Shown here in pieces: positions 45,560 through 61,445 of a stretch of DNA of 64,000 nt. Origin of the DNA: Mesotoga sp. BH458_6_3_2_1 (GTDB lineage Bacteria; Thermotogota; Thermotogae; Petrotogales; Kosmotogaceae). The translations under genes were made by a program, and so were the position numbers. Under the pieces are notes generated by a model. It searched no databases. It was not told the DNA's origin and worked only from the letters and a program-made list of their open reading frames with translations. The stretch covers positions 496,001-560,000 of the forward strand of contig NZ_JFHL01000002.1 of NCBI RefSeq assembly GCF_003664995.1. Direction: 5' to 3'. Each line of letters starts with the position of its first letter. Position 1 is the first letter of the stretch.

Positions 45560-46762
45560 ATGCCCGATTTTCGCTATGAAGTAATCAACATCAAAGGAAA
45601 GCCCGAGAAAGGCAAGCTTGCTGCGAATTCCAAACTGGAGGCACTCCAGATCCTCTCGAGCAGAGGCTATATTGTCAGTTCAATTAAGCAGTCGTCATAT
45701 TCGCGCAGCTCGACTAAGGCCTCTTTGTTTCCCGCCTCACAGAAGGAAGTCAGCATCTTTTCGAGACAGTTGGCCACGATGGTTTCATCCGGCGTCAGGA
45801 TAAGAGAGGCACTTCAGGTTCTTTCGACTCAGGTCCTGTTTTCTAGAAGATTCAGAAAGATCATAGCCCGAGTTGTTTTAGATATTGAGGGTGGAATGAG
45901 TTTCAGCGAATCTCTTGAGAGATCAGGTGTTTTTGAACCGCTGTTTACCAATCTTGTTAAGGCCGGTGAGGCAGGCGGGGTGCTTGATGAATCGCTTGAA
46001 AGAGTTGCGGACTTCTATGAGGGAATGGTTGAGCTTCAGAACCAGGTTAAATCGGCTATGGCCTATCCTCTTTTCATGATGGTTTTTGCAGTTGGAATAG
46101 TGGGGATGATTTCCTTCTTCATTCTTCCAAATTTGATCAGCGCTTTTGGAGGAAACTTTAAACCTGAGGGAACAATGGCCATTCTTCTAAAGATGAATGA
46201 TATTTTGAAAAACCAGTGGCCCCTGCTTCTGGTTTTGCTTTTCGGATTGCTGATTGGAGGGTTCTTCTTCTTCAAGAGCAAATACGGTAACATCGTTAAG
46301 GAAAGTATTGGAAAGCTAATTCCTCCAATAAGAACCCTGAGAAACATGACGGCTATGGAGAGATTCACTAGAACAACGGCCGTTCTAGTAGCAAGTGGAG
46401 TTGATCTTCCAACAGTTCTGGAGCTTGCGGGCGAAGTCTCGCAAAGTCCTCGGGTTATGAAGGCTGTAACGAATGCAATAGTCAGCATAAAGGGAGGAGA
46501 GAGCATCAGTGCTTCTCTTGAGCATCAGAAGGTCTTCCCACCGATAGTCGTTAGTATGGTGGCCACGGGAGAGGAGACCGGCAAACTGGACGAAGTCATG
46601 TTCAAAGTTGCCGACTTCTATCACATGCAGGTTCAAAACGCACTCAAGAAACTTGTTTCGCTTGTTGAGCCAATAATGATATTATTTATTGGTGGGTTCA
46701 TTGGTTTTCTGGCAATAACCATATACGGTGCTGTTTTTGCGATGGAGCAAAGTATTGGATGA
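45560..46762 (+). CDS. pilC: type IV pilus/type II secretion inner-membrane platform protein (PilC/GspF)
   Basis: 400 residues. PilC/GspF is the polytopic platform on which the assembly ATPase works. The N-terminal MPDFRYEVINIKGKPEKGKL is followed by two homologous GspF domains: FSRQLATMVSSGVRIREALQ with LVKAGEAGGVLDESLERVAD, and FTRTTAVLVASGVDLPTVLE with MVATGEETGKLDEVMFKVAD. Hydrophobic spans lie near residues 170-190, 220-240 and 370-395. Pilus versus secretion use cannot be told from this protein. Stop overlaps the next gene as ATGA. Confidence 0.93.
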   Translation: MPDFRYEVINIKGKPEKGKLAANSKLEALQILSSRGYIVSSIKQSSYSRSSTKASLFPASQKEVSIFSRQLATMVSSGVRIREALQVLSTQVLFSRRFRKIIARVVLDIEGGMSFSESLERSGVFEPLFTNLVKAGEAGGVLDESLERVADFYEGMVELQNQVKSAMAYPLFMMVFAVGIVGMISFFILPNLISAFGGNFKPEGTMAILLKMNDILKNQWPLLLVLLFGLLIGGFFFFKSKYGNIVKESIGKLIPPIRTLRNMTAMERFTRTTAVLVASGVDLPTVLELAGEVSQSPRVMKAVTNAIVSIKGGESISASLEHQKVFPPIVVSMVATGEETGKLDEVMFKVADFYHMQVQNALKKLVSLVEPIMILFIGGFIGFLAITIYGAVFAMEQSIG

Positions 46763-47139
46763 GTTTAACCGAGCTTTTGTGCTGTCTGGTTTTGGTCTCT
46801 CTTTGCATTAGCGGAGTTGTACTCTTTTCATCTGAAATCATAAGTAGCTTGAAAATTCGCCTCAGCAAAACTGCTTTCGATTCGTTCATTGAAAGACAGC
46901 GTCTTGAGGCTGTTGCTCGTTCCAGGCCTGTAGAGGTTTTCTATGATTATTGGTCGAAGAGGGTGTCTTCGACAACAGGGGCAGTTTTTGAAGACTGTCT
47001 TTGGGGGAACAGAGAGAACTTTAGGATTCGTTTCAATGGGGATGGATCTATTGCCATTCTCAGCGGGTCAACGACATTGAGCTTTGCTGATGGCAGTGTG
47101 TTGACTATCCAGCCGGTAACGGGGAAAGTCACTTATTGA
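46759..47139 (+). CDS. leaderless GspH/FimT-like minor pseudopilin
   Basis: 126 residues starting MSLTELLCCLVLVSLCISGV. The N-terminal hydrophobic helix with Glu at position 5 is that of a mature type IV pilin, and the C-terminal RFNGDGSIAILSGSTTLSF and TGKVTY pattern resembles GspH/FimT. Unusually, no leader precedes it: upstream in-frame codons contain no ATG, GTG or TTG, so Met would occupy the +1 place of mature pilins and no prepilin-peptidase cleavage is needed. GGAG lies about eleven bases before the ATG. Confidence 0.75.
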   Translation: MSLTELLCCLVLVSLCISGVVLFSSEIISSLKIRLSKTAFDSFIERQRLEAVARSRPVEVFYDYWSKRVSSTTGAVFEDCLWGNRENFRIRFNGDGSIAILSGSTTLSFADGSVLTIQPVTGKVTY

Positions 47140-47154
47140 GACTTGGGGGTAGAC

Positions 47155-48192
47155 ATGTTTCAGAGTATGATAACTGCCGTAAATTCAGACGAGGGTTACA
47201 CTGAGATCGTGAGAGCTGTTGTTGAAGGTCGGTATCTTAAGCCCGTCTTTTCTGTGCTCAGAATGGGGGTAAACTCACTTGAAGAATCAACCAAAGTCTT
47301 CAGGGAGAACAATACAATACCTGCCGACGAGATTTTTGTTACTGCCTTTCATCCAAGAGATGTTGTCTTTCAGCATCTTGAGGTTCCCCGTGTAAAGTCG
47401 ACGAAGAATTTGCTCAATGTCGCGAGCTTCAAGGCTGCTTCTCAGTTTTCATTACCTCCGGACGAAGTAAATGTAGCCTGCCTGAACTCAATAGCCTCAC
47501 TAAAAAGTGGACTTGTTCCAGCCTTTGTTATAACCAAGAGAAAGGCCTTGTTTGAATTCATTGGAAGATTGACGGCGAAGAGCTTTCCTGAACCGAACAT
47601 CGTTGATGTTAAGCCCTTCTCTATTTTCAAGATGGCTCAAACAAGCGTCTTTGAAGGCAGCAATATTGTTTTCATAGTTGATAGAAGCTATTCGCTTCTC
47701 CTGACATTAAGGGGAGAAGAAATTGTGGGCCTTAATTACATAAGCGATGGTTTTGATCAGGTGGCAAGCGGTTTCAAGGAGGACAATTCGCTCTCTCCAA
47801 ACACGAATATTCAAAGAGAGTTTCTGATTGGTTCTAAGGCTTATTATGATTCACTAATTGAAGAAGCTTCGGAAAGACTCGAGGGACTGATCTCCTATCA
47901 GTTAAGGATGTATCTTACCAACACGTTGTCAAACTCGCCAAACACTTCTGCGGCTGATGAGGCTCTCTTCACCAGGTTTTTTGTTGCAGGACAGTCAAGC
48001 CTTTCTACAGCCGTTTATTCAAGAGCTTTCCAGAGAATTCTCGGAGACGAAACAGAGGTAGTTAGCATGCCTCTGAAAATGAAGGAAACGAGCGGGATAA
48101 CTTATATTTCGGTTGGACTGCTTATGAGAGGTGGTGAGATGCTTGGTCGACGTAAACTTGTATTCAAGGAAGAAGCGGGTCTCAAGGCTTAA
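47155..48192 (+). CDS. PilM-like pilus assembly protein
   Basis: 345 residues from ATG at 47155 after GGGGGTAGAC; TTG 47143 is less likely. PilM is an actin-like cytoplasmic protein that binds the N-terminus of PilN. FVTAFHPRDVVFQHLEVPRV, NIVFIVDRSYSLLLTLRGEE and GITYISVGLLMRG occupy the places of the actin-fold strands, but the nucleotide motifs are poorly conserved. The call leans on the order PilC-pseudopilin-here-PilN-PilO. The last 50 bases overlap the next gene. Confidence 0.6.
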   Translation: MFQSMITAVNSDEGYTEIVRAVVEGRYLKPVFSVLRMGVNSLEESTKVFRENNTIPADEIFVTAFHPRDVVFQHLEVPRVKSTKNLLNVASFKAASQFSLPPDEVNVACLNSIASLKSGLVPAFVITKRKALFEFIGRLTAKSFPEPNIVDVKPFSIFKMAQTSVFEGSNIVFIVDRSYSLLLTLRGEEIVGLNYISDGFDQVASGFKEDNSLSPNTNIQREFLIGSKAYYDSLIEEASERLEGLISYQLRMYLTNTLSNSPNTSAADEALFTRFFVAGQSSLSTAVYSRAFQRILGDETEVVSMPLKMKETSGITYISVGLLMRGGEMLGRRKLVFKEEAGLKA

Positions 48193-48715
48193 GTATTCTC
48201 TAATAGTTCTGCTGATAATTGTTCTTCTGGTTCTGGGGTCCCGTTTCTTCGTTACCCAGGCATTTGAGACAAGGTTGAGGCAGGTTTCAAGGATGAAAGG
48301 CTACCTCTTCGACAATACCGGGACGTATCTGACTGGGAATCTGAAAGCAGACATCGAAATGATCTACAACAAAAAGCAAGAGTATACGGTAATGAGAAAT
48401 AAATTAAGCAAGCAGGTAAATGATCTTCGCGTGCATGTTAGCTCAAAATCAGTCGAAATGGACGTTTTCAGAACTGTAGAGACATATCTCGAAGATGAAA
48501 ATGCTATGAAGACAATTGCTTCTAGAATTCAATTTGAGAATGGAGTCGGCAATTCCTTCTATTATCTGATTTTTGAAGGCGAGGATGTTTCTTTCCCCAC
48601 ACCAAAAAGCACACCGACTCTTCTTGCCAATCCGAGTGTGAGGGGAAATCTGGATTTTGCTGAGCTCTACTCTCTTCAACTCGTCGATCTTGAGGTGGGT
48701 GGTCATCATGAGTGA
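48143..48715 (+). CDS. PilN-like inner-membrane protein
   Basis: 190 residues from TTG at 48143, nine bases after AGAGGTG; GTG 48131 and 48134 are alternatives. The start MVDVNLYSRKKR matches the conserved INL...-type N-terminus through which PilN binds PilM. One membrane span (about residues 17-38, YSLIVLLIIVLLVLGSRFF) and a coiled-coil-like periplasmic part follow. It overlaps the PilM-like gene by 50 bases and the PilO-like gene by eight. Confidence 0.65.
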   Translation: MVDVNLYSRKKRVSRLKYSLIVLLIIVLLVLGSRFFVTQAFETRLRQVSRMKGYLFDNTGTYLTGNLKADIEMIYNKKQEYTVMRNKLSKQVNDLRVHVSSKSVEMDVFRTVETYLEDENAMKTIASRIQFENGVGNSFYYLIFEGEDVSFPTPKSTPTLLANPSVRGNLDFAELYSLQLVDLEVGGHHE

Positions 48716-49304
48716 AAAAGACGAGTTCAATTTTGAAAGCATGGACATCTCTGCCACTCGAGAGTCGTTTGACGGTAATGATGGCTGCTTCATTCACAGA
48801 GACTATGCTAATAGGCTGAACAGAAAGCTCAGCTTCCTCGATAGAAAGGGTTTGAATTCGAAATTTGCGTTTTGGTCTTTGATAGCCTTGACTGTCATTG
48901 GCTTTCTCTTTCTTGTGGTTTTGTACTCCTACAATACTTTTGAGAACACATCTCTGCTAATAGACGAAGTGAATGGACTGGAAAGCGCCTATCTCGAGGT
49001 GCAGTTGCTCTCAAGGGTCAGAAACGAAGCGATTGGCTCGATGAGCACAAGAAGCTATCTGGAAGAACTCAAAGAAAAAATTCCGATAGAGACCAAACCG
49101 GGTGACTACAAAGGGATAACCGTCACTGGAGGTTCGAGGGATATTCTTGATCTTGTGGAGATGATCGTTAATGAGCCAAAGATTCTCGTCAGAAAGCTTG
49201 AACTTAGATCAAATCTTGGCTTTCCGATTCTTCCGGAATCAAATATTCCGTCGAATCTCTCACTTGAGCTGAAGACGGATCTCACGGTAACGAGTAACTT
49301 CTAG
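48708..49304 (+). CDS. PilO-like inner-membrane protein
   Basis: 198 residues from ATG at 48708 behind GAGGTGGGTGG; the frame opens at 48657 but without a site. A cytoplasmic head of about 60 residues, one span (AFWSLIALTVIGFLFLVVLY, about residues 55-75), a coiled coil and a small ferredoxin-like periplasmic end are the PilO/GspM layout. PilN and PilO form the periplasmic scaffold that meets the secretin via PilP. Sequence similarity is weak, so the call is mainly synteny and topology. Confidence 0.55.
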   Translation: MSEKDEFNFESMDISATRESFDGNDGCFIHRDYANRLNRKLSFLDRKGLNSKFAFWSLIALTVIGFLFLVVLYSYNTFENTSLLIDEVNGLESAYLEVQLLSRVRNEAIGSMSTRSYLEELKEKIPIETKPGDYKGITVTGGSRDILDLVEMIVNEPKILVRKLELRSNLGFPILPESNIPSNLSLELKTDLTVTSNF

Positions 49305-49318
49305 GTGGAGTTGATTAT

Positions 49319-49759
49319 ATGGAGAAGGTTGTTCTAATTATCGTTGTTTCTATAACTTTGTTAGTTACGGGTGGGGTTCTGCTGACATTTCTTCTGGAAC
49401 CGGTGGAAATTGCCGATGTTGCGGCGAGCAGAATTAGAATCGATCCTATCGATACTACCAGAGTGGTAAGCAGCGTTACTTTGGGCAATCACTTTCTTCC
49501 TCTTTATGCAAGTCCTTTGGAAGTTATAAGGTCCATGCTGGAAGTGGGCGAAGAGGCTGCCGATGTCAAATATGTAGCTTACTATAGATTGAACAAAGTT
49601 GATTATGCGGTTCTTGAAGCAGGACAGTCACAGATTACAGTAAGAGTTGGAGAACAGGTGGCTCCCTCTTACATCGTATACGGAATTACGGAATTTGCTG
49701 TGTTGCTTAACGACACGAGCACGAACAGCTTTGTTGTTGTGAAGTACTTTAGATCGTAA
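49319..49759 (+). CDS. PilP-like inner-membrane-anchored protein
   Basis: 146 residues; ATG at 49319. An N-terminal anchor (KVVLIIVVSITLLVTGGVLL) is followed by a beta-rich periplasmic domain ending with VGEQVAPSYIVYGITEFAVL. Its place between a PilO-like gene and the secretin suggests PilP or GspC, which link scaffold and secretin. No lipobox Cys is seen, unlike typical PilP; GspC-like proteins use such an anchor. Function is inferred from position. Confidence 0.5.
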   Translation: MEKVVLIIVVSITLLVTGGVLLTFLLEPVEIADVAASRIRIDPIDTTRVVSSVTLGNHFLPLYASPLEVIRSMLEVGEEAADVKYVAYYRLNKVDYAVLEAGQSQITVRVGEQVAPSYIVYGITEFAVLLNDTSTNSFVVVKYFRS

Positions 49760-49778: not shown

Positions 49779-52700
49779 GTGATTCGTGTGAGAAGAATAG
49801 CGGTCATATTTTTAGTTCTGGGTTTCTTCTGTATTGGAGTCTCTAATCAGTTGAATTCTGTTATACCATCTATGGATGCTGAATCTGTAACAGTGACGAT
49901 GATCTTCAACGACACAGTCACCGATTACAACATTCAGTCAAATCCTTCCAAGACTATATACTCCCTGGCGCTCAACGGAGTTAGTGGAAGAGATATGAAT
50001 CTCCCGCTCCGAATGGGTCCCGTGGAGGGGCTGTGGACCAGACAGGATCCGAAGAGACTTTCTGTCAATGTTGCGTTGTTGATTCCAGCAATTGATGAGC
50101 CCGAAGTCAAGATAATGGGGAATGTAGTCACTTTGAGATTCTTCAGATCGAAGATCAACGTGGATATCGAAAAGTTCACAACATATGGTATGACTGTTTC
50201 CACTGCGATGACGTACCTTTTCTCAGAAGAGATGCTTGATCTTTCTTATGTCATATCTCCTAGTGTCAGAAACGAGGAGGTCATTGTCGGTTTTTCTCTT
50301 GCGATGCCCGAGGACATTCTTCGAAACATTCTTACATCACTCGGAGATAGGATAGCATACTCCTATTTCACCGATGGAACATTCTATCTGGGGACCCCTG
50401 AAGAAGTACAGGATCTGGTAAACGCCTTCTGGAAGACTTACATAGGTGTGGAGTTCAACGCCGAAGGAGAATCTGTTTCTGAACAGATCGAAAGGTTAAG
50501 AAAGGCACTTCCTGTTAACAGTTTCATAGAGTATCTGCCAAACGAGGCTTCACTAATGGTTTTTGGAGATCTTCAGACTCATATGACACTTTCTGCCGCT
50601 CTCACGACAAACACAGTCACTAGGGAATACACGGTTCCATGGGAGATCACCAACATTGACATCGAACCTCTCACTGCATACTATGAACTGGCTATAAAAC
50701 TAAATTCAACGCTGTTCTCTGATAGCCTTACAGTAACTGGCATTCCAGAGTTCAACAAACTCATTTTTTCTGGAAATGCTGCTCAAGTTGATGCTCTGTA
50801 TGAGTATATAGATCTTTACAAGGAGTACGTTACATCACAAGACCTCGACTCCAGTAAGACGAGAAAGACGATAACTCTACCTGACAACTTCTTTCTGATT
50901 GAAGATATATTGAAACTGGGTAGCGTATCAGGATCTGGTTTGACAGAAGACAAGACTCTGGTAGGGACGATTTTCAGTATTCTTCAGAGCTATGCGGTAT
51001 ACGAGGATCTCTCAGTCGACAGAACCTTTGAACCCATCGGAAAGGTAACTTTCGAATTACCAAATTACCTCGTTCCGGTTCTTCAGAAGGTCACAGATTC
51101 GTTCTCTGAGATCTCGACAGATGTGTCTTACACTATTGTAAATTATCACCTAACTATAGAAGAATCAATACTTTCGCAGGTTCAACGTATTACCGGGGCA
51201 GCAATAGAGTCACTGGGAGAAAGAAAGGGATACATCATCAAGGGTTCTAAGAGCTCAATCGGAACGGCTGAGTATCTCCTTTCGCTTTTCACAGGGATTG
51301 CTTTTGAAAACTATGCAAGTACATACCTCGAGTTGAAGGCTAATGATTCCTTTGAGGAAGTATCCGCTTTCCTTAGAACTTTCTACGCTGCTCAGGGTCT
51401 TGTTGAAGACGAGTATACAGTTGAGCAGATCGCAGACAGATTGGTCTTCATGTACGCTCCTTCTGAGATTATGGAGAAAGCGGTTATTGAACTTGAGCAG
51501 CACGAAAAGCAGATATACAGAATTACAAGGCAGTCTATCCTTGAAATCTCACCCGAAGTCTATTCTTCGGGTTTGGGTGAGTTGCTCCAGACGATCCTTG
51601 TCGAAAACGAGACGGTCAGCTTCATTGAGTCAGCAGGTCTTCTCGTGATTAGAGCTTACCCGGACAGACTTGCGGAGATAGAGAGCGTTATCGAAGAGAG
51701 AATCCCAAGAATAACTGAAATGGTTGAGAACCGCATCTCAAGTCAGGAAACCCGGTTGTCTCTACAGATAATGGCGATCCCTGGCTGGGATATCGAGAAG
51801 TTCAGGGCTTATCTGAACGATTTCCTTGGATCCGATCTTTATTCGGAAATTACACTTACAACATCTGGCAGCGGCTATATAGTAATTGCGTCACAGCCAG
51901 TACTGGAAGCGATTTCTACAGAAGCAGAAAAACTGAGAGGATTTGAGAATCCCTCTTATAGACTGGAGTCATCAATTCCATCCCTCGCTCAGTTCGAGCT
52001 TCTTCTGGAAAAACTGGGTATCGCCGTGACAATTGTTCCTGTGGAGAACCAGTTCATGATAGTTGGTTCAAAGGAGAATGTTGAGGAGGCCTCTAAGCTC
52101 GTCCGACAGCTTAGCAGCGGCCTTCCTGTTCAGGGTGATGTTTCGGACACTGCGGTGGATTACGAGTTCACATTTATTAACCTCCCCTATGGAGAAGTCG
52201 AGGGGATAAGTGAACTTCTAAACAAGCTCAGTTTATCTGTTGAATTTGTCAACACTCCTACAGGTGTGGCAGTTGTAGCTACGAAAGAGAGACTTGAGAA
52301 GGCAATGGAGGTCATAAACTCTGTCCTGTCAAGAATCGAGACAATCGAGACCGGTCCGAGAAGTTACAGTCTGATAGATATTGAACCGGCCATGGTAAGT
52401 AGTTTAAGTGAAATACTGTCCCGGTTGGGCTACGAAATAGATCTGGTGGAGACCCCGGCAGGAATAATCGGAATCGGTGTTGAGGCGCAGTTAGCTAGAG
52501 CCAAGAGCATAGTTGAAGAGATCTTGAAGAAGGAGACATCATCACTTCCCCAACAGGGAGATGGGGATCGATCATACTTGATCATTTCTTCAAAGCCTGA
52601 AATAGAGATCGCCTCGCTCAACTCCGTAATCAGTGTCTTCAGTTTCGATCTCGTAATAACTGCTGTCTACGACAAAATAGTCGTCGTTGGAGACAGCTAT

Positions 52701-55700
52701 GATCTTCAGCTCTTCAGAGGATTGTACAACGAGATTCTTACCTCTGAAAGTGTCGAAGGGGCCTTTGTCAGCAAAGAGCTTTCCGGAGTTCCCGGTTGGG
52801 ATTCTGACCGACTACTTTCCTATCTTGGAGTCGTTCTTGGAGTTGAGAAAACGGCCAGTGTTTCACTAGTTCAAACCGCAAGCGGATATATAATCAACTG
52901 CCCTCAGTCAATACTGGAGAGCATTGAAAGCGAATTTGAGAGACTGCGAAGTATTGAGAGCCCTTCTTATTCGATTGAGAGAAGAATGCCCACACTCGAT
53001 GAGATGAACTCTCTTCTGTTGAGACTGGGAATCATTGTAGACATTCTGAAAGTGGATGATTATTTTGTAATCGTTGGATCTTCCGCAAGTGTTGAACAGG
53101 CGAAGGAGCTTGTTTCAAGGCTTCTAGAGGTTATCGGTGACGAATCTGAAAGTAAACAAACTGCATTTCAGGTCTCCAGGATCTCAAGTGAAGATATGTC
53201 TGCTTTTAATGAAATCTTCTCGAGTATCGGGATGCAAGTGAAATTACTTGAATCCCCTTCAGGTATTCTAATTATTGGAAACGGCGATGAAGTCTCAAGA
53301 GCGATTGAAGTTGCAGATTCAATTCTTGAGAAGCGCGCTTCAACCGTTGATTCGGAAATCGTATTCGATTTTGTGCCTGTTTCTTCCGATGAAATTCAAG
53401 ACTATTCCTTGATTTTTGAAAAGATGGGACTGAATGCTGAATTGCTATCTTCTCCATCTGGTGTAATTGTGATTGGATCTTCTGAAGAAGTAGCAGAAGC
53501 AAAATCGGTAGTGCAGTTGATTGCCGAACAGAAACAGCAGTTCGATACGACTGAAGAGAAGAGAAACGACTCGACCTTTGTCAGAAGAGTCGCGGGATGG
53601 AGCGATGAAGTGTTCTCCAGCTATCTGAGAGACTTTCTGAATGAGGATCAGTATTCCCGAGTATCAATATCTCCATCGGTAAGCGGCTACATTGTAGCGG
53701 GTCCCGTTGAACTTCTTCAATCAATTGAGGCCGAGGTCAGTCGTCTTCAAGAGATTCAAGATCCTCACTTCGTTGTTCAAAGAGGACTTCCACCTCTTGA
53801 TCAGCTTGAGACACTAATCGAAGCACTGGGCATCAAAGTTGAGATAATCCCGGTTGAGGATAAGTATCTGATTGTTGGTAATCGAGAAAGTGTGGTTCAG
53901 ACAGATCAAATCATCGACCAATTGATAGAGGCAATATACCCAGAAGGAAAGCCCGTCGAAGATGCAGTGGTGTCGAAAACGTTCATCTTTTTGCCGGTAA
54001 GACCCGAAGATGCAGCTCCTCTGGAAACAGTTATGGAGAGGCTCGGAATCACATCCGAACTAGTTCAGATCTCGACGGGAGTCATTGCAGTCGGTTCTGA
54101 GAAGGAGCTTCTGAAAACACTTGACGTGGTTGAGTCGGTAATGGCTCATTCCGAAAGTGTCACGGCCGAACTGGAACTGAATTACAGATTTGTTGATGTT
54201 CGATCAGATTCAATAGAGCAACTTCTGCCCATAATCGAGCGGTTGAACATCGGAATCGAACTGCTTGACACTCCCACCGGTGTAGTCGCAATAGGTTCAG
54301 ATCCTGAACTGGATCGAGCAGAAGAGTTGATAGAGGCGATTAACGCGAGAGCGACTGAAGATGTTCCGCTTCAGGACAAGTACGAGAGTTATCTCCTTCT
54401 TCCCATTTCTGCGGGAATTACTGTTCAGTCTCTGGAACCGGCGCTTGAACTGCTAGATTATCGAGTCTTTGCAGTAAGCGTTGCTGATAAAATTATCGCG
54501 ATCGGCGGTGAAGAGGATCTTCTTAAGTTCAAGGCTCTATACATGCAGCTTCAGGCAGTGGAAGTAGACAGAGAAGAAAGGATCTCTCTCGATATCAAGG
54601 CAATTCCTGGATGGGACATTGTTAGGGTAAGCGAGTATCTGAGACTATTTCTTGGAGTCGATGACTTTGACAGGATTTCTATAGTCCCTTCTTCCACGGG
54701 ATTCGTTGCTTTAATACCAAGAGCTCTCATGGACACGGTAGAAACTGAAATATCAAGGCTCAGAGAGTTTGAAGATCCGGCCTTCACAGTGCTTGAGAGA
54801 ATACCTCCCGTTGAAGATCTTGAAGGGCTGCTTTCCAGACTTGGAGTCCTTGTTGATCTGGTAAGCATGGGAAGTTCCACAATAGTAATTGGTTCCGGTG
54901 ATGATGTTCAGCGCACAGGCAGGATAATAGATCAGCTCTTGGATTCGGTGACCTATGATGTTACCGCACCCGAAGCGATTGAATACAGCGTTCTGGACAT
55001 ATCTGCTGACGATATGAGTAGCTTCAACGCAATTTTCGAGCGACTTGCAATCGATGTGTCTCTTATTTCCTCCCCCTCCGGGGTCATAGCCATCGGGTCG
55101 CAGCAGGCAGTCGCAAGAACGGCGACAGTGGTTGAAGACATTCTTAGCAGGAGGACCACCCAGCAGGTGTATGAGCCGATTTATGCCTTCACGGGAATAC
55201 CAAGTGCAGACATGAGTAGCTACCAGACTATTCTTGATAAGCTGAACTCGGGAGTCGAGCTTTTGCAATCGGCCACTGGAGTTCTTATGATCGGCGACGG
55301 AGACAAGGTGCAGGAAGCGCTCAAGACAGTCAATGCTATTCTTGAGAGAGAAGCGTTGTTTGACGAATCAGAAGGTCAGCCAGACAGGGTCTCAAACGTT
55401 GCGGCCCTCGTCCCCGGATGGAACGATGACAAGTATGCCAGTTATTTTACTGACTTTCTCGGTATCGACGATTTCTCGAGAATCTCTATCACTCCTTCTA
55501 CCAGTGGATATATTGTGATCGGTCCCGAAGAAGTAGTGTCGAGATTGGTTGCCGAGGCTTCCAGGTTAGCCGAAATAGAGGATCCATTCTTCGTTATTGA
55601 GGATTCCCTTCCCGCTATCGATCAACTCGACACTCTGCTTGACAGATTAGGCCTTAGGGTCACGATATTGCCTGTAGAGAACAAGTATCTCATAGTGGGC

Positions 55701-58700
55701 ATCAAGGAAAGTGTTGAGAAGACGGTCGAGCTCATTAAGATGTTCAGAAGTGATGTGGAGGCTCCCGTAAGCTCGAGAAAATACGACTATTTGATAATGC
55801 CCGCAAATGAAGGCAGTTTCGAGACAATACGACAGGTGCTCTCTGAATTGAAGATCGATGCCACGGCTTTGAGTTTCGGGAGTAACGTAATACTTGTCGG
55901 TTACGGCGAGGATCTTGAAGATGCAGCAAGTGTCGTAAACTCAATAAATGAAAGAACGGTAATTCTAGCGACTGACAAGGAGCTGAAATACTCGTTCACA
56001 GAGATCCCGAACGACAGAATTGATGAGTTTACTGCCATACTTGACAGCCTTAAACTTGATGTTGAACTTCTCTCTTCTCCTTCGGGGGTCGTCCTTGTTG
56101 GAACCGAGGAAGAGGCGGCAAAGGCGAATGAAGTGATTCGTTCAGTACTTTCAAAGGCCGAACAGGACGAAACTGTCGAGTCGAGATTTTTCAACAACCC
56201 GGCTGGATGGGAAGAGGGAAAGCTTGTTGCGTATTTGAGAGGCTTCCTGGGAGAGAAGGACTGGTCGAAGGTTAGTGCAACTCCTGTCCAGTCAGGATAT
56301 CTATTGGTGGGCCCATCAGAAATTCTGAACAGGATACATTCAGAGACGGTGAGGTTAGCGGGCCTTGAAAAGCCTTACTACGAGATAGTCGAGACGGTTC
56401 CTTCTATCCAGAATCTTCAAGCTATGCTGGAGAAGATGGGTCTTGCCGTCACGGTTGTCACCGTGGACGGGAGATCGATGGTAATCGGACCGGAAAGTGA
56501 TGTCCTTCAGACTGTCAAGGTATTTGGTGAACTTGCCGAAGGGATTGTCCTTCCCAGGGGCGACGAACCCGATGTCTTTGACTTTGTAGAAATTCCGTCT
56601 GAAGAAGTGGAAAGCTTCAGAACAATCTTCGCAAGGCTTGGAATCCGAGTCGATCTGCTCAGCACACCTACGGGAGTCATAGTCGTTGGCCAAAAAGACA
56701 GTATTTCAAAGGCCCTTGAGACCATGACCTCAATTCTCTCTCGCAGAGAGGTGCAGGTTGCTGACGGCGAGCAAAGCTATGTGGTTGTGGAGATCCGTGA
56801 AGGCTTCGATCTCGCCTCAGCACAGTCGGTTATCTCGGCTTTCAGTATAGACTCATATCCTCTTTCTGTGGCGGGAAAGCTTGTGATCATAGGTGCCGAA
56901 AAGGAAATTGCAAGATTCGTACAGCTAAGAAACGACATCATAAGCGAGCACAAAGTGACCGTTATCGTGCCTCGTGAAGTCACTATAGAAGAACTCAACG
57001 GGATAATCAGTACGCTGGGACTAGAAATGTCGGTTCTCGAAATCCGAGGCAGCTTCGTCGTGTACGGTAAGGAGGGAGAGATCGAACAGGTTAAGGACAT
57101 CCTTTCCCGGCTTACGTCCGATGAGCCTTCCGATAAGACTCAGGAGATGCGGATTTTCACGGGGATTTACCAGAGCACTGATTTTCTAAATCAGCTTCTC
57201 TCCAGTATGGGCTCTTCTTTGAAGATCTACGGAGAGGGCGACAGAATTGTGGCGGTTGGTAGTGCGGACGATATAGAAATGTTTGAGAGTCTTATGCAGG
57301 AGATCGGTTCTGAACCGTCAGCAGTGGAATTGACAGCGAAGTTCTATCCTAGGCTTGAAGGCTGGACTGGAGAGACTCTTGCCGAGTTCTTCCGGGCTAT
57401 GAACTTCGCAGTAGAGGTCTTCCATGAGAGCAGTCAGGGATACCTGTTGATAGGTCCAGCCGATGAGCTTAATAGAGTTCCAGATATTATGGACGGTCTT
57501 GAACTTAAAACAAGGAGACTGACTACTCTGTATCCTGTTCCATCGGGAATGACTTTCGAAGAACTCAGGGAGATTCTGGTGTCGGCGGGATTCAGTTTCT
57601 CATATACGAGACTGGGACAGAGTATGTCGATTTCCGGGCTTGAAGATGATGTAAATATGGCTGTTGCCCTCCTCGACGAAGTGATCAGAAGCGGATTGGG
57701 AAAGGGAGTCTCTTACAGGCTTATAGAATTACCTGTCGACCTGACTCTTGAGAAGCTTGAAAAGATCATGAGCGACATGGCCCTTGACATCTCCTCGGTG
57801 CAAGTTGACGGGGAAGTTATGCTAATAGGTCCCGACAGCGATCTGAGGACTGCGAAGGAGATAGTTGAATATCTCACGCCTGAAGATCCTTCCGTTGACG
57901 AGCAAAGAATCTACTCGGTAATTCCGCTTGGTGAGGGACTGGCGCTCGCGGAGATCTCCGCCCTCGTTGAAAGTCTCTCCCTAAGTGTTGAGATCCTTCC
58001 TGTGGGAGGAGATATCGTAGTAATAGGTACTGAAAGCAATGTGGATCGTTTTAGAGAACTTGTAAGCTCTATCTCAGCAACTCTTGGAATTGAAAGTGTT
58101 GAGAGTCCTGAATACTCCATCGTTGAGAAGGTGGAAGAGATCTCGATCGACCAGTTCAGAGAGCTGCTCGCATCTCTCAACATACCTGTGAAGATCGTAG
58201 AGGTTTCCGATTACCTGGTCTTTATTGGTTCTAGTGAGAATAACGGCAAGGCAGTCGATCTCTTTTCAAGATTCGAGACGGAAGACAAAGAGCCCGTAGT
58301 GGAGGAAATTGAGTTTATCACTCTGTCGTTGCCAGAGGGATTTGATCTCAATTCTCTCTCGACAATATTCGATAAACTTGACTTCAAAGTCGATCTAAAT
58401 TCCGTCGGCAATGTCTTACTCTTGATCGGAAGGAAAGATTCTATCGAAAATGCCCAGGCGCTTGTTGAGAAGCTTGTGCAGGTTTCCACAGGAGAATCGG
58501 GCGAAAAGAACGTCTTTGAGATTCTTGAGCCTAAGGAAGGCGTATCTGCCGAGTTGCTGAATCAGCTTTTCAGGCTTATTGGAATTGATGTAGAGATACT
58601 CGAAGGCGATACTGCGCTTGTATTTGTGGGAAGCCAGACCGATGTTGAGATGGCACTCGAGGTCTACGATTCTCTCGGGAAAACGGCACAAGTTGATGAA

Positions 58701-61445
58701 GGACCTCTGTCGTACACAATAACGATTCTTCCGAAGAACCTCACGCCAGGCCAGCTTGAGACAGCTTTCGATTCGATTCAGATACCGGTCGGCGTAATTG
58801 AAGCCGGTGATTACGCGATAATTGTCGGAACAAAGTCCTCCCTTGCTAGAGCACAGGAGCTCGTTTCCTCCCTGAGGATTGGAATTGACGCGAGCGGAAC
58901 GTCGGCCGACGGTTCGATATCGTACGTGACATTTGGCAAGCCGGAAGGGACAGAAATTGACCAGTTCGAGACAATTGCAGGACTAATGGAGCTTAAACTG
59001 AAATTCGAGCCGGTCGGAGACAGGGTCTTCATGATAGGTACGGGGGAGGATATAGGCGAATTCGAGCAGGTTCTCAACGGGCTTGTGAGCGAGAAGGCCG
59101 GAATAGTAAATGAATTCAGATTCGCAAAGAAGCTTTCCGGAATCGATGCAGATACGCTCGAAACTTATCTGCTCGCGAAAGAGATTTCGCTTTCCGGAGT
59201 GTTCGATGTGAGCGGTGGGTACCTTATAATTGGCACCAGAGAGTCCATTGACGAAGCCCAGGCAGTAATTGATTACCTTGCAGACAATCAGCAGGTTTAC
59301 TTCGCATATGTAGATTTGCCTTCGACATTGACGTCTGAAGTACTCCAGGCAATGGTTAATGAACTGATGCTTGAAGTAACGTTTACTCAAATCACTCAGT
59401 CAAGGTATTTGTTGATAGGTCAGCTAAACGACATTGATAGCATGAAGAGTATTCTGTCAGATGCTGTAGTCGGAGAATCAGTGTTTCTAGATTACGAGAT
59501 AGTTGTTGTTAGTCAAGAGTTCAACGATTTTCTTGTTGATGAAAGAATCAGAGAGGATTTGGATAGTTCTTTGGATAGCATTGGTGTATCTACTTACATA
59601 GGCAAGTTTGATGACCGACTTCTGATAGTGGGCGAGAAAACACATGTAGATGTAGCTAAGAAGCTGATTAGTGAGCTTGATAAAGCGGCGTCGCTTTCTG
59701 GGATAGAAGAGAAGATAAAGATTGAAGATCTTCCACCCGTCAGTGGCTGGAGCATAGAGCAAATAACACAGTTCCTGGAGGCGGCGGAGATTCAGCTAAG
59801 ATCGATTATAGAGTACTCGGGCAGACTCATCGGAATTGGAACTCAAGTCGGACTTGAAAACGCGAGAGCCGCGCTCAGTATCCTCGCAGTAGATTCGAAG
59901 CGCGAATCGGTAAGAATCGAGAAAACTCTAGTTACCGAGATGCAACTCAGAGAGATTATCTCCAAGCTAGACCTCAAAGTTGAGTTTGTGGACCTCGAAC
60001 GCCAGTGGCTGCTAATCGGTGAACCAGAGTCACTTATGATTGTCATTAGGACAGTTGAAGAGGCGGCCGCCGACAAGGAGATCTCAAGATACATCACCGA
60101 TCTGACTGTCAATCCTCAAGAACTTGCCGATCTTCTTAGAGAATCAATCGAGGGAATAACTGTTCAGACCTTCGACGACCTTCAGATGCTGTTGATCAAG
60201 TCAAAGAGCTCAGCTCTGCTCGATGCGGCGGAGAAGATGGTCAAGGACGTTCAGGATTCGAGAAAGGCCGTCGATCCCCTGGAGAAAGGAGTCTTAGTAA
60301 CGGGTTCCACGGTCAGAATAAACGTGGCCGACCAGGATCTAGAGTCTCTTCTCAGGATAGTTGCTGATAAACTCGGTATTTCACTCCTTTTTGTGGACAA
60401 GATTGTCGAGAACGTGACCATGTCTGTTGAAGGCCTTACCTGGGACGGGCTGGTGAAGGTTATCAATGCTACAAAGCCTGTCGAGATAAGCAAAATCGAT
60501 GACATCTACGCAGTCACGAAGAAGGAACAGAAGGCCGGAGAAGAGCCTACCGATGTTGAGCTTGTTTACCGTGTCTATCACAATGTCGAAGAGGTAACAA
60601 GATTGATTGAGTTCTACGGAGGCGAGGTTCTTTCCGATCCAGTGAACGGCTACATTGTTGTGAGAGGGCTTGCGAAGTCCAGGGTAGACAACATCTTCGA
60701 TGAGATCGGATCTTCTCTCTCGCAGCCGAAGAAGCAGGTAAGAATAGAGACAAGACTTGTCGATAAATCCCTTGTGGATGAGCTTCAGAGAGAATTCAAG
60801 ACTGCGATAGGCGTTAACAGTCCTGAGATTCTGCTAGAAAACGGCTCGATCGATCTAGACTTCAGAATCATTGACTATCTGGATATAACACAGCTCATCG
60901 ACGATATTGTCAATACTGCGACAGCAAGGATAGAAGCTGATCTTAGCAATAGAGACAGTGATTCCGATCTCATATCCAGCCCTTCCATTGTCTCCATGAG
61001 TGGCGAAGAGGCAAAGATTCACATTGGAGATACAATTCCATATCTCGTTCGAACAATTGAGTACATCGAGGGTAACCCGGTGGAGATAGAGACTATCGAG
61101 TACCTTAATACCGGAGTGGAGTTGAGAATAACTCCTACCGTCAACGATGACGGAAAGATCCTGCTTGACCTCTACATAAAGGTTAGTGAGCCCGAGAAAT
61201 ATGTCGATGGAACAAGAACTCTTTATGGTGAGAAGACCCGGGAAGCAAATAGCAGGTTAATAATCTCAAATGGGAACACTTTGACAATTGGAGGACTAGT
61301 AGCAAATAAGGATACGGTGACAGTCAATAAGATGCCTTTCTTAAGCGATCTACCCTTCATTGGCAAGTTGTTCACTACGGAGAACAGAACATCCGACAAG
61401 AGAGAATTGGTTATCTTCATCACCGCGGAGGTGGTTGAGCCGTGA
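49779..61445 (+). CDS. giant repeat-expanded secretin (PilQ/GspD-like), 3,888 residues
   Basis: Starts at GTG 49779 (or GTG 49788, six bases after GGGGTG). A signal peptide (residues 5-24) is followed by an AMIN-like beta domain (about 30-125), an STN-like domain (about 125-225) and several divergent N-type domains to about 660. Residues about 661-3504 are roughly 43 units of about 66 residues, each a beta-alpha-beta-beta-alpha pattern like secretin N1 domains. Then come an STN domain (about 3505-3585), one normal N1 domain ending YGGEVLSDPVNGYIVVRG plus a short stretch, and the barrel (about 3650-3888) with ISSPSIVSMSGEEAKIHIGD, LNTGVELRITPTVNDDGKIL and the end PFLSDLPFIGKLFTTENRTS. Usual secretins have 400-900 residues. 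Last gene of the pilus-like operon; the stop overlaps the Memo gene. Confidence 0.9.
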   Translation: MIRVRRIAVIFLVLGFFCIGVSNQLNSVIPSMDAESVTVTMIFNDTVTDYNIQSNPSKTIYSLALNGVSGRDMNLPLRMGPVEGLWTRQDPKRLSVNVALLIPAIDEPEVKIMGNVVTLRFFRSKINVDIEKFTTYGMTVSTAMTYLFSEEMLDLSYVISPSVRNEEVIVGFSLAMPEDILRNILTSLGDRIAYSYFTDGTFYLGTPEEVQDLVNAFWKTYIGVEFNAEGESVSEQIERLRKALPVNSFIEYLPNEASLMVFGDLQTHMTLSAALTTNTVTREYTVPWEITNIDIEPLTAYYELAIKLNSTLFSDSLTVTGIPEFNKLIFSGNAAQVDALYEYIDLYKEYVTSQDLDSSKTRKTITLPDNFFLIEDILKLGSVSGSGLTEDKTLVGTIFSILQSYAVYEDLSVDRTFEPIGKVTFELPNYLVPVLQKVTDSFSEISTDVSYTIVNYHLTIEESILSQVQRITGAAIESLGERKGYIIKGSKSSIGTAEYLLSLFTGIAFENYASTYLELKANDSFEEVSAFLRTFYAAQGLVEDEYTVEQIADRLVFMYAPSEIMEKAVIELEQHEKQIYRITRQSILEISPEVYSSGLGELLQTILVENETVSFIESAGLLVIRAYPDRLAEIESVIEERIPRITEMVENRISSQETRLSLQIMAIPGWDIEKFRAYLNDFLGSDLYSEITLTTSGSGYIVIASQPVLEAISTEAEKLRGFENPSYRLESSIPSLAQFELLLEKLGIAVTIVPVENQFMIVGSKENVEEASKLVRQLSSGLPVQGDVSDTAVDYEFTFINLPYGEVEGISELLNKLSLSVEFVNTPTGVAVVATKERLEKAMEVINSVLSRIETIETGPRSYSLIDIEPAMVSSLSEILSRLGYEIDLVETPAGIIGIGVEAQLARAKSIVEEILKKETSSLPQQGDGDRSYLIISSKPEIEIASLNSVISVFSFDLVITAVYDKIVVVGDSYDLQLFRGLYNEILTSESVEGAFVSKELSGVPGWDSDRLLSYLGVVLGVEKTASVSLVQTASGYIINCPQSILESIESEFERLRSIESPSYSIERRMPTLDEMNSLLLRLGIIVDILKVDDYFVIVGSSASVEQAKELVSRLLEVIGDESESKQTAFQVSRISSEDMSAFNEIFSSIGMQVKLLESPSGILIIGNGDEVSRAIEVADSILEKRASTVDSEIVFDFVPVSSDEIQDYSLIFEKMGLNAELLSSPSGVIVIGSSEEVAEAKSVVQLIAEQKQQFDTTEEKRNDSTFVRRVAGWSDEVFSSYLRDFLNEDQYSRVSISPSVSGYIVAGPVELLQSIEAEVSRLQEIQDPHFVVQRGLPPLDQLETLIEALGIKVEIIPVEDKYLIVGNRESVVQTDQIIDQLIEAIYPEGKPVEDAVVSKTFIFLPVRPEDAAPLETVMERLGITSELVQISTGVIAVGSEKELLKTLDVVESVMAHSESVTAELELNYRFVDVRSDSIEQLLPIIERLNIGIELLDTPTGVVAIGSDPELDRAEELIEAINARATEDVPLQDKYESYLLLPISAGITVQSLEPALELLDYRVFAVSVADKIIAIGGEEDLLKFKALYMQLQAVEVDREERISLDIKAIPGWDIVRVSEYLRLFLGVDDFDRISIVPSSTGFVALIPRALMDTVETEISRLREFEDPAFTVLERIPPVEDLEGLLSRLGVLVDLVSMGSSTIVIGSGDDVQRTGRIIDQLLDSVTYDVTAPEAIEYSVLDISADDMSSFNAIFERLAIDVSLISSPSGVIAIGSQQAVARTATVVEDILSRRTTQQVYEPIYAFTGIPSADMSSYQTILDKLNSGVELLQSATGVLMIGDGDKVQEALKTVNAILEREALFDESEGQPDRVSNVAALVPGWNDDKYASYFTDFLGIDDFSRISITPSTSGYIVIGPEEVVSRLVAEASRLAEIEDPFFVIEDSLPAIDQLDTLLDRLGLRVTILPVENKYLIVGIKESVEKTVELIKMFRSDVEAPVSSRKYDYLIMPANEGSFETIRQVLSELKIDATALSFGSNVILVGYGEDLEDAASVVNSINERTVILATDKELKYSFTEIPNDRIDEFTAILDSLKLDVELLSSPSGVVLVGTEEEAAKANEVIRSVLSKAEQDETVESRFFNNPAGWEEGKLVAYLRGFLGEKDWSKVSATPVQSGYLLVGPSEILNRIHSETVRLAGLEKPYYEIVETVPSIQNLQAMLEKMGLAVTVVTVDGRSMVIGPESDVLQTVKVFGELAEGIVLPRGDEPDVFDFVEIPSEEVESFRTIFARLGIRVDLLSTPTGVIVVGQKDSISKALETMTSILSRREVQVADGEQSYVVVEIREGFDLASAQSVISAFSIDSYPLSVAGKLVIIGAEKEIARFVQLRNDIISEHKVTVIVPREVTIEELNGIISTLGLEMSVLEIRGSFVVYGKEGEIEQVKDILSRLTSDEPSDKTQEMRIFTGIYQSTDFLNQLLSSMGSSLKIYGEGDRIVAVGSADDIEMFESLMQEIGSEPSAVELTAKFYPRLEGWTGETLAEFFRAMNFAVEVFHESSQGYLLIGPADELNRVPDIMDGLELKTRRLTTLYPVPSGMTFEELREILVSAGFSFSYTRLGQSMSISGLEDDVNMAVALLDEVIRSGLGKGVSYRLIELPVDLTLEKLEKIMSDMALDISSVQVDGEVMLIGPDSDLRTAKEIVEYLTPEDPSVDEQRIYSVIPLGEGLALAEISALVESLSLSVEILPVGGDIVVIGTESNVDRFRELVSSISATLGIESVESPEYSIVEKVEEISIDQFRELLASLNIPVKIVEVSDYLVFIGSSENNGKAVDLFSRFETEDKEPVVEEIEFITLSLPEGFDLNSLSTIFDKLDFKVDLNSVGNVLLLIGRKDSIENAQALVEKLVQVSTGESGEKNVFEILEPKEGVSAELLNQLFRLIGIDVEILEGDTALVFVGSQTDVEMALEVYDSLGKTAQVDEGPLSYTITILPKNLTPGQLETAFDSIQIPVGVIEAGDYAIIVGTKSSLARAQELVSSLRIGIDASGTSADGSISYVTFGKPEGTEIDQFETIAGLMELKLKFEPVGDRVFMIGTGEDIGEFEQVLNGLVSEKAGIVNEFRFAKKLSGIDADTLETYLLAKEISLSGVFDVSGGYLIIGTRESIDEAQAVIDYLADNQQVYFAYVDLPSTLTSEVLQAMVNELMLEVTFTQITQSRYLLIGQLNDIDSMKSILSDAVVGESVFLDYEIVVVSQEFNDFLVDERIREDLDSSLDSIGVSTYIGKFDDRLLIVGEKTHVDVAKKLISELDKAASLSGIEEKIKIEDLPPVSGWSIEQITQFLEAAEIQLRSIIEYSGRLIGIGTQVGLENARAALSILAVDSKRESVRIEKTLVTEMQLREIISKLDLKVEFVDLERQWLLIGEPESLMIVIRTVEEAAADKEISRYITDLTVNPQELADLLRESIEGITVQTFDDLQMLLIKSKSSALLDAAEKMVKDVQDSRKAVDPLEKGVLVTGSTVRINVADQDLESLLRIVADKLGISLLFVDKIVENVTMSVEGLTWDGLVKVINATKPVEISKIDDIYAVTKKEQKAGEEPTDVELVYRVYHNVEEVTRLIEFYGGEVLSDPVNGYIVVRGLAKSRVDNIFDEIGSSLSQPKKQVRIETRLVDKSLVDELQREFKTAIGVNSPEILLENGSIDLDFRIIDYLDITQLIDDIVNTATARIEADLSNRDSDSDLISSPSIVSMSGEEAKIHIGDTIPYLVRTIEYIEGNPVEIETIEYLNTGVELRITPTVNDDGKILLDLYIKVSEPEKYVDGTRTLYGEKTREANSRLIISNGNTLTIGGLVANKDTVTVNKMPFLSDLPFIGKLFTTENRTSDKRELVIFITAEVVEP
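51759..53570 (+). repeat. nine-unit block, copy 1 (W-B-C-D-E-W-B-C-D)
   Basis: From the unit around Trp670 to the one before Trp1274, 604 residues. Its order matches copy 2 at 53571-55391: both contain the optional E unit in the first but not the second half. This suggests duplication of a 1.8-kb block. Confidence 0.65.
53571..55391 (+). repeat. nine-unit block, copy 2 (W-B-C-D-E-W-B-C-D)
   Basis: From the unit around Trp1274 to the one before Trp1881, 607 residues. The E-type unit (around residues 1535-1595, with VSVADKIIAIGG) corresponds to that of copy 1 (TAVYDKIVVVGD). A four-unit W-B-C-D group follows. Confidence 0.65.

Follow-up and report, generated by a model that had tools for sequence, protein, structure and literature searches.

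Can a subunit of a type IV pilus be made without the leader peptide that prepilins carry? This question is raised by a short gene directly behind pilC in Mesotoga sp. BH458_6_3_2_1. The window (the whole stretch of DNA that was analysed, 64,000 nucleotides) contains this gene within a set of type IV pilus assembly genes. What defines prepilins is a class III signal peptide: the prepilin peptidase cleaves off a leader whose last residue is Gly or Ala (PMC10191384). Docking of Glu5 on a neighbouring subunit has been proposed for pilins (PMC10191384). The genes of the neighbourhood are as follows.

45560..46762, + strand: pilC/gspF, inner-membrane platform protein of the type IV pilus (Pfam T2SSF, 2.4e-58)
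46759..47139, + strand: leaderless H-type minor pseudopilin gene, 126 aa (MSLTELLCCLV...PVTGKVTY) plus stop, assigned by sequence, leadered-homologue profile and fold
47143..48192, + strand: pilM-slot gene, named by position, no Pfam match
48131..48715, + strand: pilN-slot gene, named by order only, no Pfam match
48657..49304, + strand: pilO-slot gene, named by order only, no Pfam match
49319..49759, + strand: pilP-slot gene, named by order only, no Pfam match
49779..61445, + strand: very large PilQ-like secretin, 3888 aa (Pfam Secretin, 1.6e-40, residues 3725-3887)

Most of the secretin outside residues 3725-3887 is unnamed by Pfam. Similar motifs seem to recur in it when inspected by eye, and its gene has no direct DNA repeat of at least 60 bases.

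The product of 46759-47139 has 126 residues (MSLTELLCCLVLVSLCISGVVLF...ADGSVLTIQPVTGKVTY). The features at its start are as follows.

46666..46668, + strand: in-frame stop (TGA) that bounds the frame upstream; no ATG, GTG or TTG from here to 46759
46744..46747, + strand: candidate Shine-Dalgarno sequence GGAG, which ends 11 nt before the ATG
46759..46761, + strand: ATG start codon, aligned with mature residue +1
46771..46773, + strand: codon for Glu5, the conserved pilin +5 glutamate, invariant in the 16 of 16 rows of profile A2 (see below)
46765..46848, + strand: hydrophobic N-terminal helix, residues 3-30 in the model (single-sequence AlphaFold2; pLDDT 86, 76 and 40 in successive blocks of ten)

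The ATG (46759-46761) overlaps the pilC stop codon (TGA, 46760-46762), and the energy of the anti-Shine-Dalgarno duplex at this start is -5.6 kcal/mol. The pseudopilin frame, taken from stop to stop, starts at 46669; it is open upstream of 46759 only as a result of its overlap with pilC in a different frame. The earlier note had read the N-terminus MSLTELLCCLV as having Met at +1 of a mature pilin and Glu at +5 but no leader, and had found no ATG, GTG or TTG in the upstream frame back to 46720. The sequence agrees with the former, and the latter holds even further, for the entire frame back to the stop at 46666-46668. When translated, the upstream frame reads CFCDGAKYW|MSLTELL, so that residue -1 is Trp. 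ATT and ATA codons are present in this stretch, and because of this Trp a start at any of them would yield no cleavable leader. A hydrophobic N-terminal helix with Glu at +5, as expected for pilins, is found in the window protein, and a class III leader ending in Gly or Ala before +1 is not. As judged from the DNA, the leader is lost, translation begins at the residue that matches +1 of a processed pilin, and the glutamate at +5 is retained.

Orthologues were collected by a protein search of 61 genomes (its own and 60 relatives; E 0.001). The gene is present in 17 of these, which are all 17 genomes of family f1, and was absent from all 44 genomes outside f1 in that search. One of the 17 genes (L007) is cut by a contig end, which leaves 16 with an N-terminus, the window gene and 15 orthologues. 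Each of the 16 lacks a leader, begins with ATG, GTG or TTG and has Glu as its fifth residue. A sequencing error is ruled out, as the start is the same in 15 of 15 orthologues whose N-terminus is available. No second copy was found in the same genome, where a search with profile A2 returned only the window gene. In seven of the 16 (L008, L011, L012, L013, L014, L015, L017), an in-frame stop codon is found 0-3 codons upstream of the start, so that there is no room for a leader in these genes.

This bears on the proposal of a hidden leader, reached either from a nonstandard upstream start or by a -1 frameshift out of pilC (MEQSIG|MSLTE). The upstream frame of the window gene is open, the -1 junction would put Gly before Met, and ATT appears to serve as the start codon in some pilin genes of the genome. 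Nevertheless, we consider a hidden leader to be extremely improbable, given the in-frame stops in seven of the 16 genes, in which the frameshift junction does not exist either, and given the raw upstream frames of the 62 leaderless genes from the class (see below), 61 of which have no Gly or Ala at -1 (the exception being L014, with Ala). As a general explanation, it is ruled out by the in-frame stops of the orthologues.

Is the window protein a pilin at all? It does not reach the cut-off of any Pfam or NCBIfam family: 17.9 bits were obtained with NCBIfam ComGD (E 0.0032; cut-off 70) and 12.3 bits with Pfam GspH (cut-off 21). Profile A2 was built from the leaderless f1 genes (16 rows) and A3 from the leadered relatives described below (13 members), while family f11 was represented by the eight g36/g37 rows of A4. 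A2 aligns with A3 at E 1.2e-12 over 119 columns, A2 residue 2 being placed at A3 column 6, which identifies the window family as homologous to leadered pseudopilins. The A3 profile matches mature pilins in the PDB, and its column 5 is chain residue 1 in many of them. By this register, position +1 corresponds to Met1 of the window protein. Of the 13 A3 members, 11 show a resemblance to NCBIfam ComGD with E values of 0.1 or lower (best 9.4e-10; the member shown stays under the cut-off). A search of PDB sequences with A2 returned no pilin, only unrelated chains.

The AlphaFold2 model from the single sequence is weak (pLDDT 58.6) and has two helices, the first of them long, and seven strands; a four-row alignment scored lower (pLDDT 55.2). 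When this weak model was submitted to Foldseek, FimU or EpsH occupied nine of the ten best rows (best FimU E 0.023, probability 0.99). VIA gave Z scores of 5.5 for EpsH (3.9 A, 89 residues), 5.5 for XcpHIJK chain A and 5.4 for FimU, with the first unrelated row at 3.0, values to be read with the caution that a Z under 8 may reflect only a common arrangement. An H-type globular beta-sheet head is supported by this prediction: the model is weak, yet its matches are specific. The pilin identity that the earlier note had assumed is thus backed by the profile match and by the fold matches. Alternatively, this could be an ordinary single-pass membrane protein that begins with MSLTE by chance, as might be suspected from the absence of any family match above cut-off and of PDB pilins among the A2 hits. 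We regard this as very improbable in view of the 119-column match to leadered pseudopilins, the strict register of the glutamate, the fold matches led by FimU and EpsH, and the operon context.

The slot directly after pilC was then compared across class Thermotogae. PilC was found in 80 of 103 genomes (E 1e-20), two of which (G009 and G045) were left out due to contig ends, so that 78 slots were examined. An ORF occupies the slot in 75 of them and is missing in three (L210, L211, L228). In family f7 (L210, L211), pilC is followed by the next gene without a pseudopilin ORF in between; in L211, the protein directly after PilC is a clear PilM_2 match (9.7e-25). Four other pilM-slot proteins were scanned and had no family match. 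In family f2, PilC was unmatched at E 1e-20 in 21 of 21 genomes. The six f2 genomes that were tested have only one or two matches to TIGR02532, and their prepilin peptidase open frames are shorter (157-173 aa).

With leader states assigned by eye, 13 of the 75 slot genes have a short putative leader ending in Gly and 62 have none, three f8 genes and six other f11 genes (with Asp at 5 or no acidic residue) having been placed in this series by gene order and hydrophobic helix rather than by profile. The leadered A3 aligns nearly over its full length with f11 (A4; E 2.7e-10, 117 columns) and with f3 (E 4e-07, 118 columns). Family f10 aligns over the N-terminal helix only (29 columns with A2, 35 with A3), and f11 (A4) aligns with A2 over just 37 C-terminal columns.

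Putative leaders of 3-6 residues ending in Gly, with Glu at Gly+5, occur in 11 genes of families f4 and f5 (MERRKG|WSLVE, MDGRKG|WSLVE, MKKSG|STLIE, MKKG|, MKSG| in two genes, MKAG|, MEEG|, MWKG|, MKG|YTLVE and MRG|YTLVE). A leader of only two residues is found in two genes, MG|YSFVE and MG|FSLTE, one in f6 with a TTG start and one in f9 with ATA. Among the leaderless proteins, 40 have Glu at position 5 (16 in f1, 16 in f10, 8 in f11; e.g., MSLTE, MTYIE, MNIIE), and their residue 2 is always Ser, Thr or Asn (19, 11 and 10, respectively). Asp is found at position 5 in two f11 proteins and Glu at position 4 in 13 (nine in f3, three in f10, one in f8), while two f8 proteins begin with MGGLIE and MSTLIE. 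The remaining five of the 62 (four in f11, one in f3) have no acidic residue near the start. Within the first 22 positions of the 62 leaderless proteins, there are 57 acidic residues, which are found at position 4 (13), 5 (42) or 6 (2) and nowhere else. Removal of Met by methionine aminopeptidase before Ser or Thr (30 of the 40 proteins with Glu at 5) would make the glutamate residue 4.

A Shine-Dalgarno energy of -4 kcal/mol or better is found at 60 of the 62 leaderless starts, compared to 26% of random positions, a figure that is partly circular for the CTG (four rows), ACG (three) and ATA (one) starts, which were chosen partly by this energy; for the leadered genes, the value is 6 of 13. 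The apparent nonstandard starts behind a strong Shine-Dalgarno sequence are ACG in L217, L219 and L220, CTG in L222, L114, L231 and L232, and ATA in L120.

In a tree of the PilM-slot proteins (74 of the 75 rows, L229 being too short; root untested), a branch has all 13 leadered rows on the same side; its support of 88/80 is below the star threshold of the method. One leader loss suffices for this tree, and several losses may be compatible with it as well. Leader lengths of six, three to five, two and none coexist in living relatives, as if the leader had shrunk stepwise.

The slot protein of one genome (G093), which is probably Thermotoga maritima MSB8, begins with MNIIEVLIV. Its gene would presumably be TM_0093, when counting from TM_0094. 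In a published table, TM_0094 is pilC and TM0088 is among the pilQ genes (PMC5637354). Another member of the genus, Thermotoga sp. RQ7, has been reported to undergo natural transformation (PMC4029938). Family f3 includes a Pseudothermotoga (L125, whose slot protein is the same as that of L116), f10 a Thermosipho (L126) and f11 a Thermotogaceae bacterium (L127). We give about even odds to the generalization that the 62 of 75 leaderless slot genes of the Thermotogae, probably including that of Thermotoga maritima, encode a pre-matured minor pilin in which the initiator Met replaces the N-terminus made by PilD, the leader having been lost via six, three, two (MG|) and finally no residues.

The comparison was extended beyond the class by a scan of genome contigs with PilC, which returned 80 loci, only three of them from Thermotogota. 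At the 77 loci from other phyla, a leader with Gly or Ala at its end is present in 44 of 54 motif matches. The other ten comprise one pilin with Ser at -1 and sequences that look unrelated by eye. A possible leaderless case from another phylum (L171, MALGE) was ruled out, as it is deep inside a long open frame and has no good Shine-Dalgarno sequence. The corresponding scan of viral contigs with PilC gave no matches.

The slot pseudopilin looks dispensable in places, which would also be expected of a decaying pilin with relaxed constraint that is on its way to being lost; the glutamate is gone in five of the 62 leaderless proteins and the whole ORF in three of the 78 slots. For the window gene, decay is improbable. 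Its dN/dS is 0.07-0.13 against five congeners (five pairs), a measure by which it is under purifying selection in its genus, and it was matched in 17 of 17 family genomes searched. The same losses are relevant to the main rival, by which the protein is a resident membrane part of the platform, beside PilC and the PilM-P-like proteins, that mimics a docked pilin and never enters the fibre. Its leader would have been lost as processing was no longer needed. The place of the gene between pilC and the pilM-slot gene, in 75 of the 78 slots, is in line with this proposal, as is the fact that the leader, the glutamate and the whole gene are missing in different lineages, which is expected if entry into the fibre is not needed. 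Yet Glu or Asp is retained at position 4-6 in 57 of the 62 leaderless proteins, which a mere anchor would not need, and the predicted head resembles those of H-type pilins. Platform residence is thus rather unlikely, and we give it more weight than any other alternative.

Processing as such is not lost in this lineage. The genome has PilB, PilC, PilD and other pilins, with two secretion-type ATPases and one intact PilD that has both domains (A24_N, 2.3e-32; Peptidase_A24, 8.9e-12). Ten matches to TIGR02532 were obtained (E up to 1). One is the window gene, and in each of the other nine, the in-frame residue -1 is Gly (one start is unsure, two need ATT). A general loss of PilD or of processing is ruled out by this intact PilD and these nine pilins.

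Several observations on these other pilin genes deserve mention. ATT is the only fitting start in the prepilin genes L253 and L256 of the same genome, and also in L052 and L062. The context is CGG TGA GGT TCT ATT followed by AAG or AGA (M-K/R-K/R-G|F...), and an in-frame stop stands two codons upstream. For L256 (KRG|MTMAELL), the nearest upstream ATG, GTG or TTG is a GTG at -31 codons (-7.1 kcal/mol), and there is an ATG at +3 (-8.4 kcal/mol). Its leader is uncertain; if the ATG at +3 were used, this might be another leaderless pilin. In G004, eight TIGR02532 matches within about 4.5 kb (G004:C19:1937-6486) form what appears to be a tandem array of paralogous major pilins whose N-termini are almost identical (L066, L076).

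We favour the interpretation, with a probability of roughly 0.6, that the window gene encodes an H-type minor pilin that is made already mature: its leader is lost, its glutamate is kept, and it would dock without PilD to start or link the pilus. Translation would directly give an N-terminus equal or nearly equal to that of a processed pilin. SRP/Sec would insert the first hydrophobic helix as a membrane anchor with N-in, C-out topology. Topology is normally set by a basic N-terminal leader, and its absence from the window protein counts against this interpretation. PilD would neither cut nor methylate the pseudopilin, because there is no site to cut. Glu5 and the beta-sheet head would then dock onto PilC and/or other minor pilins, by which the pilus would be started or linked, and assembly at the platform could be primed by an H subunit that is made in finished form from a gene next to pilC. 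The earlier note had proposed insertion without PilD processing and had suggested looking for a leader in orthologues. None is seen in the window gene, in 15 of 15 f1 orthologues or in 62 of the 75 class slot genes. The comparison thus supports the proposal, with independence from PilD deduced from the missing cleavage site.

If this is true, one pilin of the set that starts assembly is ready without peptidase or N-methylation. The sequences suggest that one part of a pilus can skip a maturation step that is held to be standard. A pilin stripped of its leader, in a genome with nine other recognised pilins that have retained Gly at -1, is a natural experiment, raising the question of what purpose the leader, its processing and N-methylation serve, and whether pilus assembly is primed from the membrane by this subunit. 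Tests could draw on ready-made constructs, namely the relatives with a leader, with MG| and without one.

In the literature that was searched, with subscription papers incompletely covered, no report of a leaderless type IV pilin was found. For Gram-positive pil/tad/com operons, a figure legend uses an asterisk to mark genes that lack a prepilin peptidase cleavage site (PMC3244431). The series of leader loss seen here in Thermotogae is not described in that legend. Among NCBIfam families, ComGD, a minor pilin of the competence pilus, is the one that the leadered relatives resemble most often (11 of 13). ComGD of S. sanguinis is cleaved by ComC (PMC10790768), unlike the window protein, which has no cleavage site. 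In a modelled ComG tip complex, ComGD is lowest and links the tip to the filament, as does H in H-J-I-K (PMC10790768). The window protein has a hydrophobic helix with Glu5 and a predicted beta-sheet head, as have FimU from the type IV pilus and GspH, EpsH and XcpH from type II secretion. Pilins are described as being made with a leader that is cleaved (PMC10191384), and the window protein differs from them in being leaderless. Because the defining leader was tested for and is absent, we assign the window product as a leaderless derivative of the H-type (GspH/FimU/ComGD-like) minor pilins and not as a standard prepilin.
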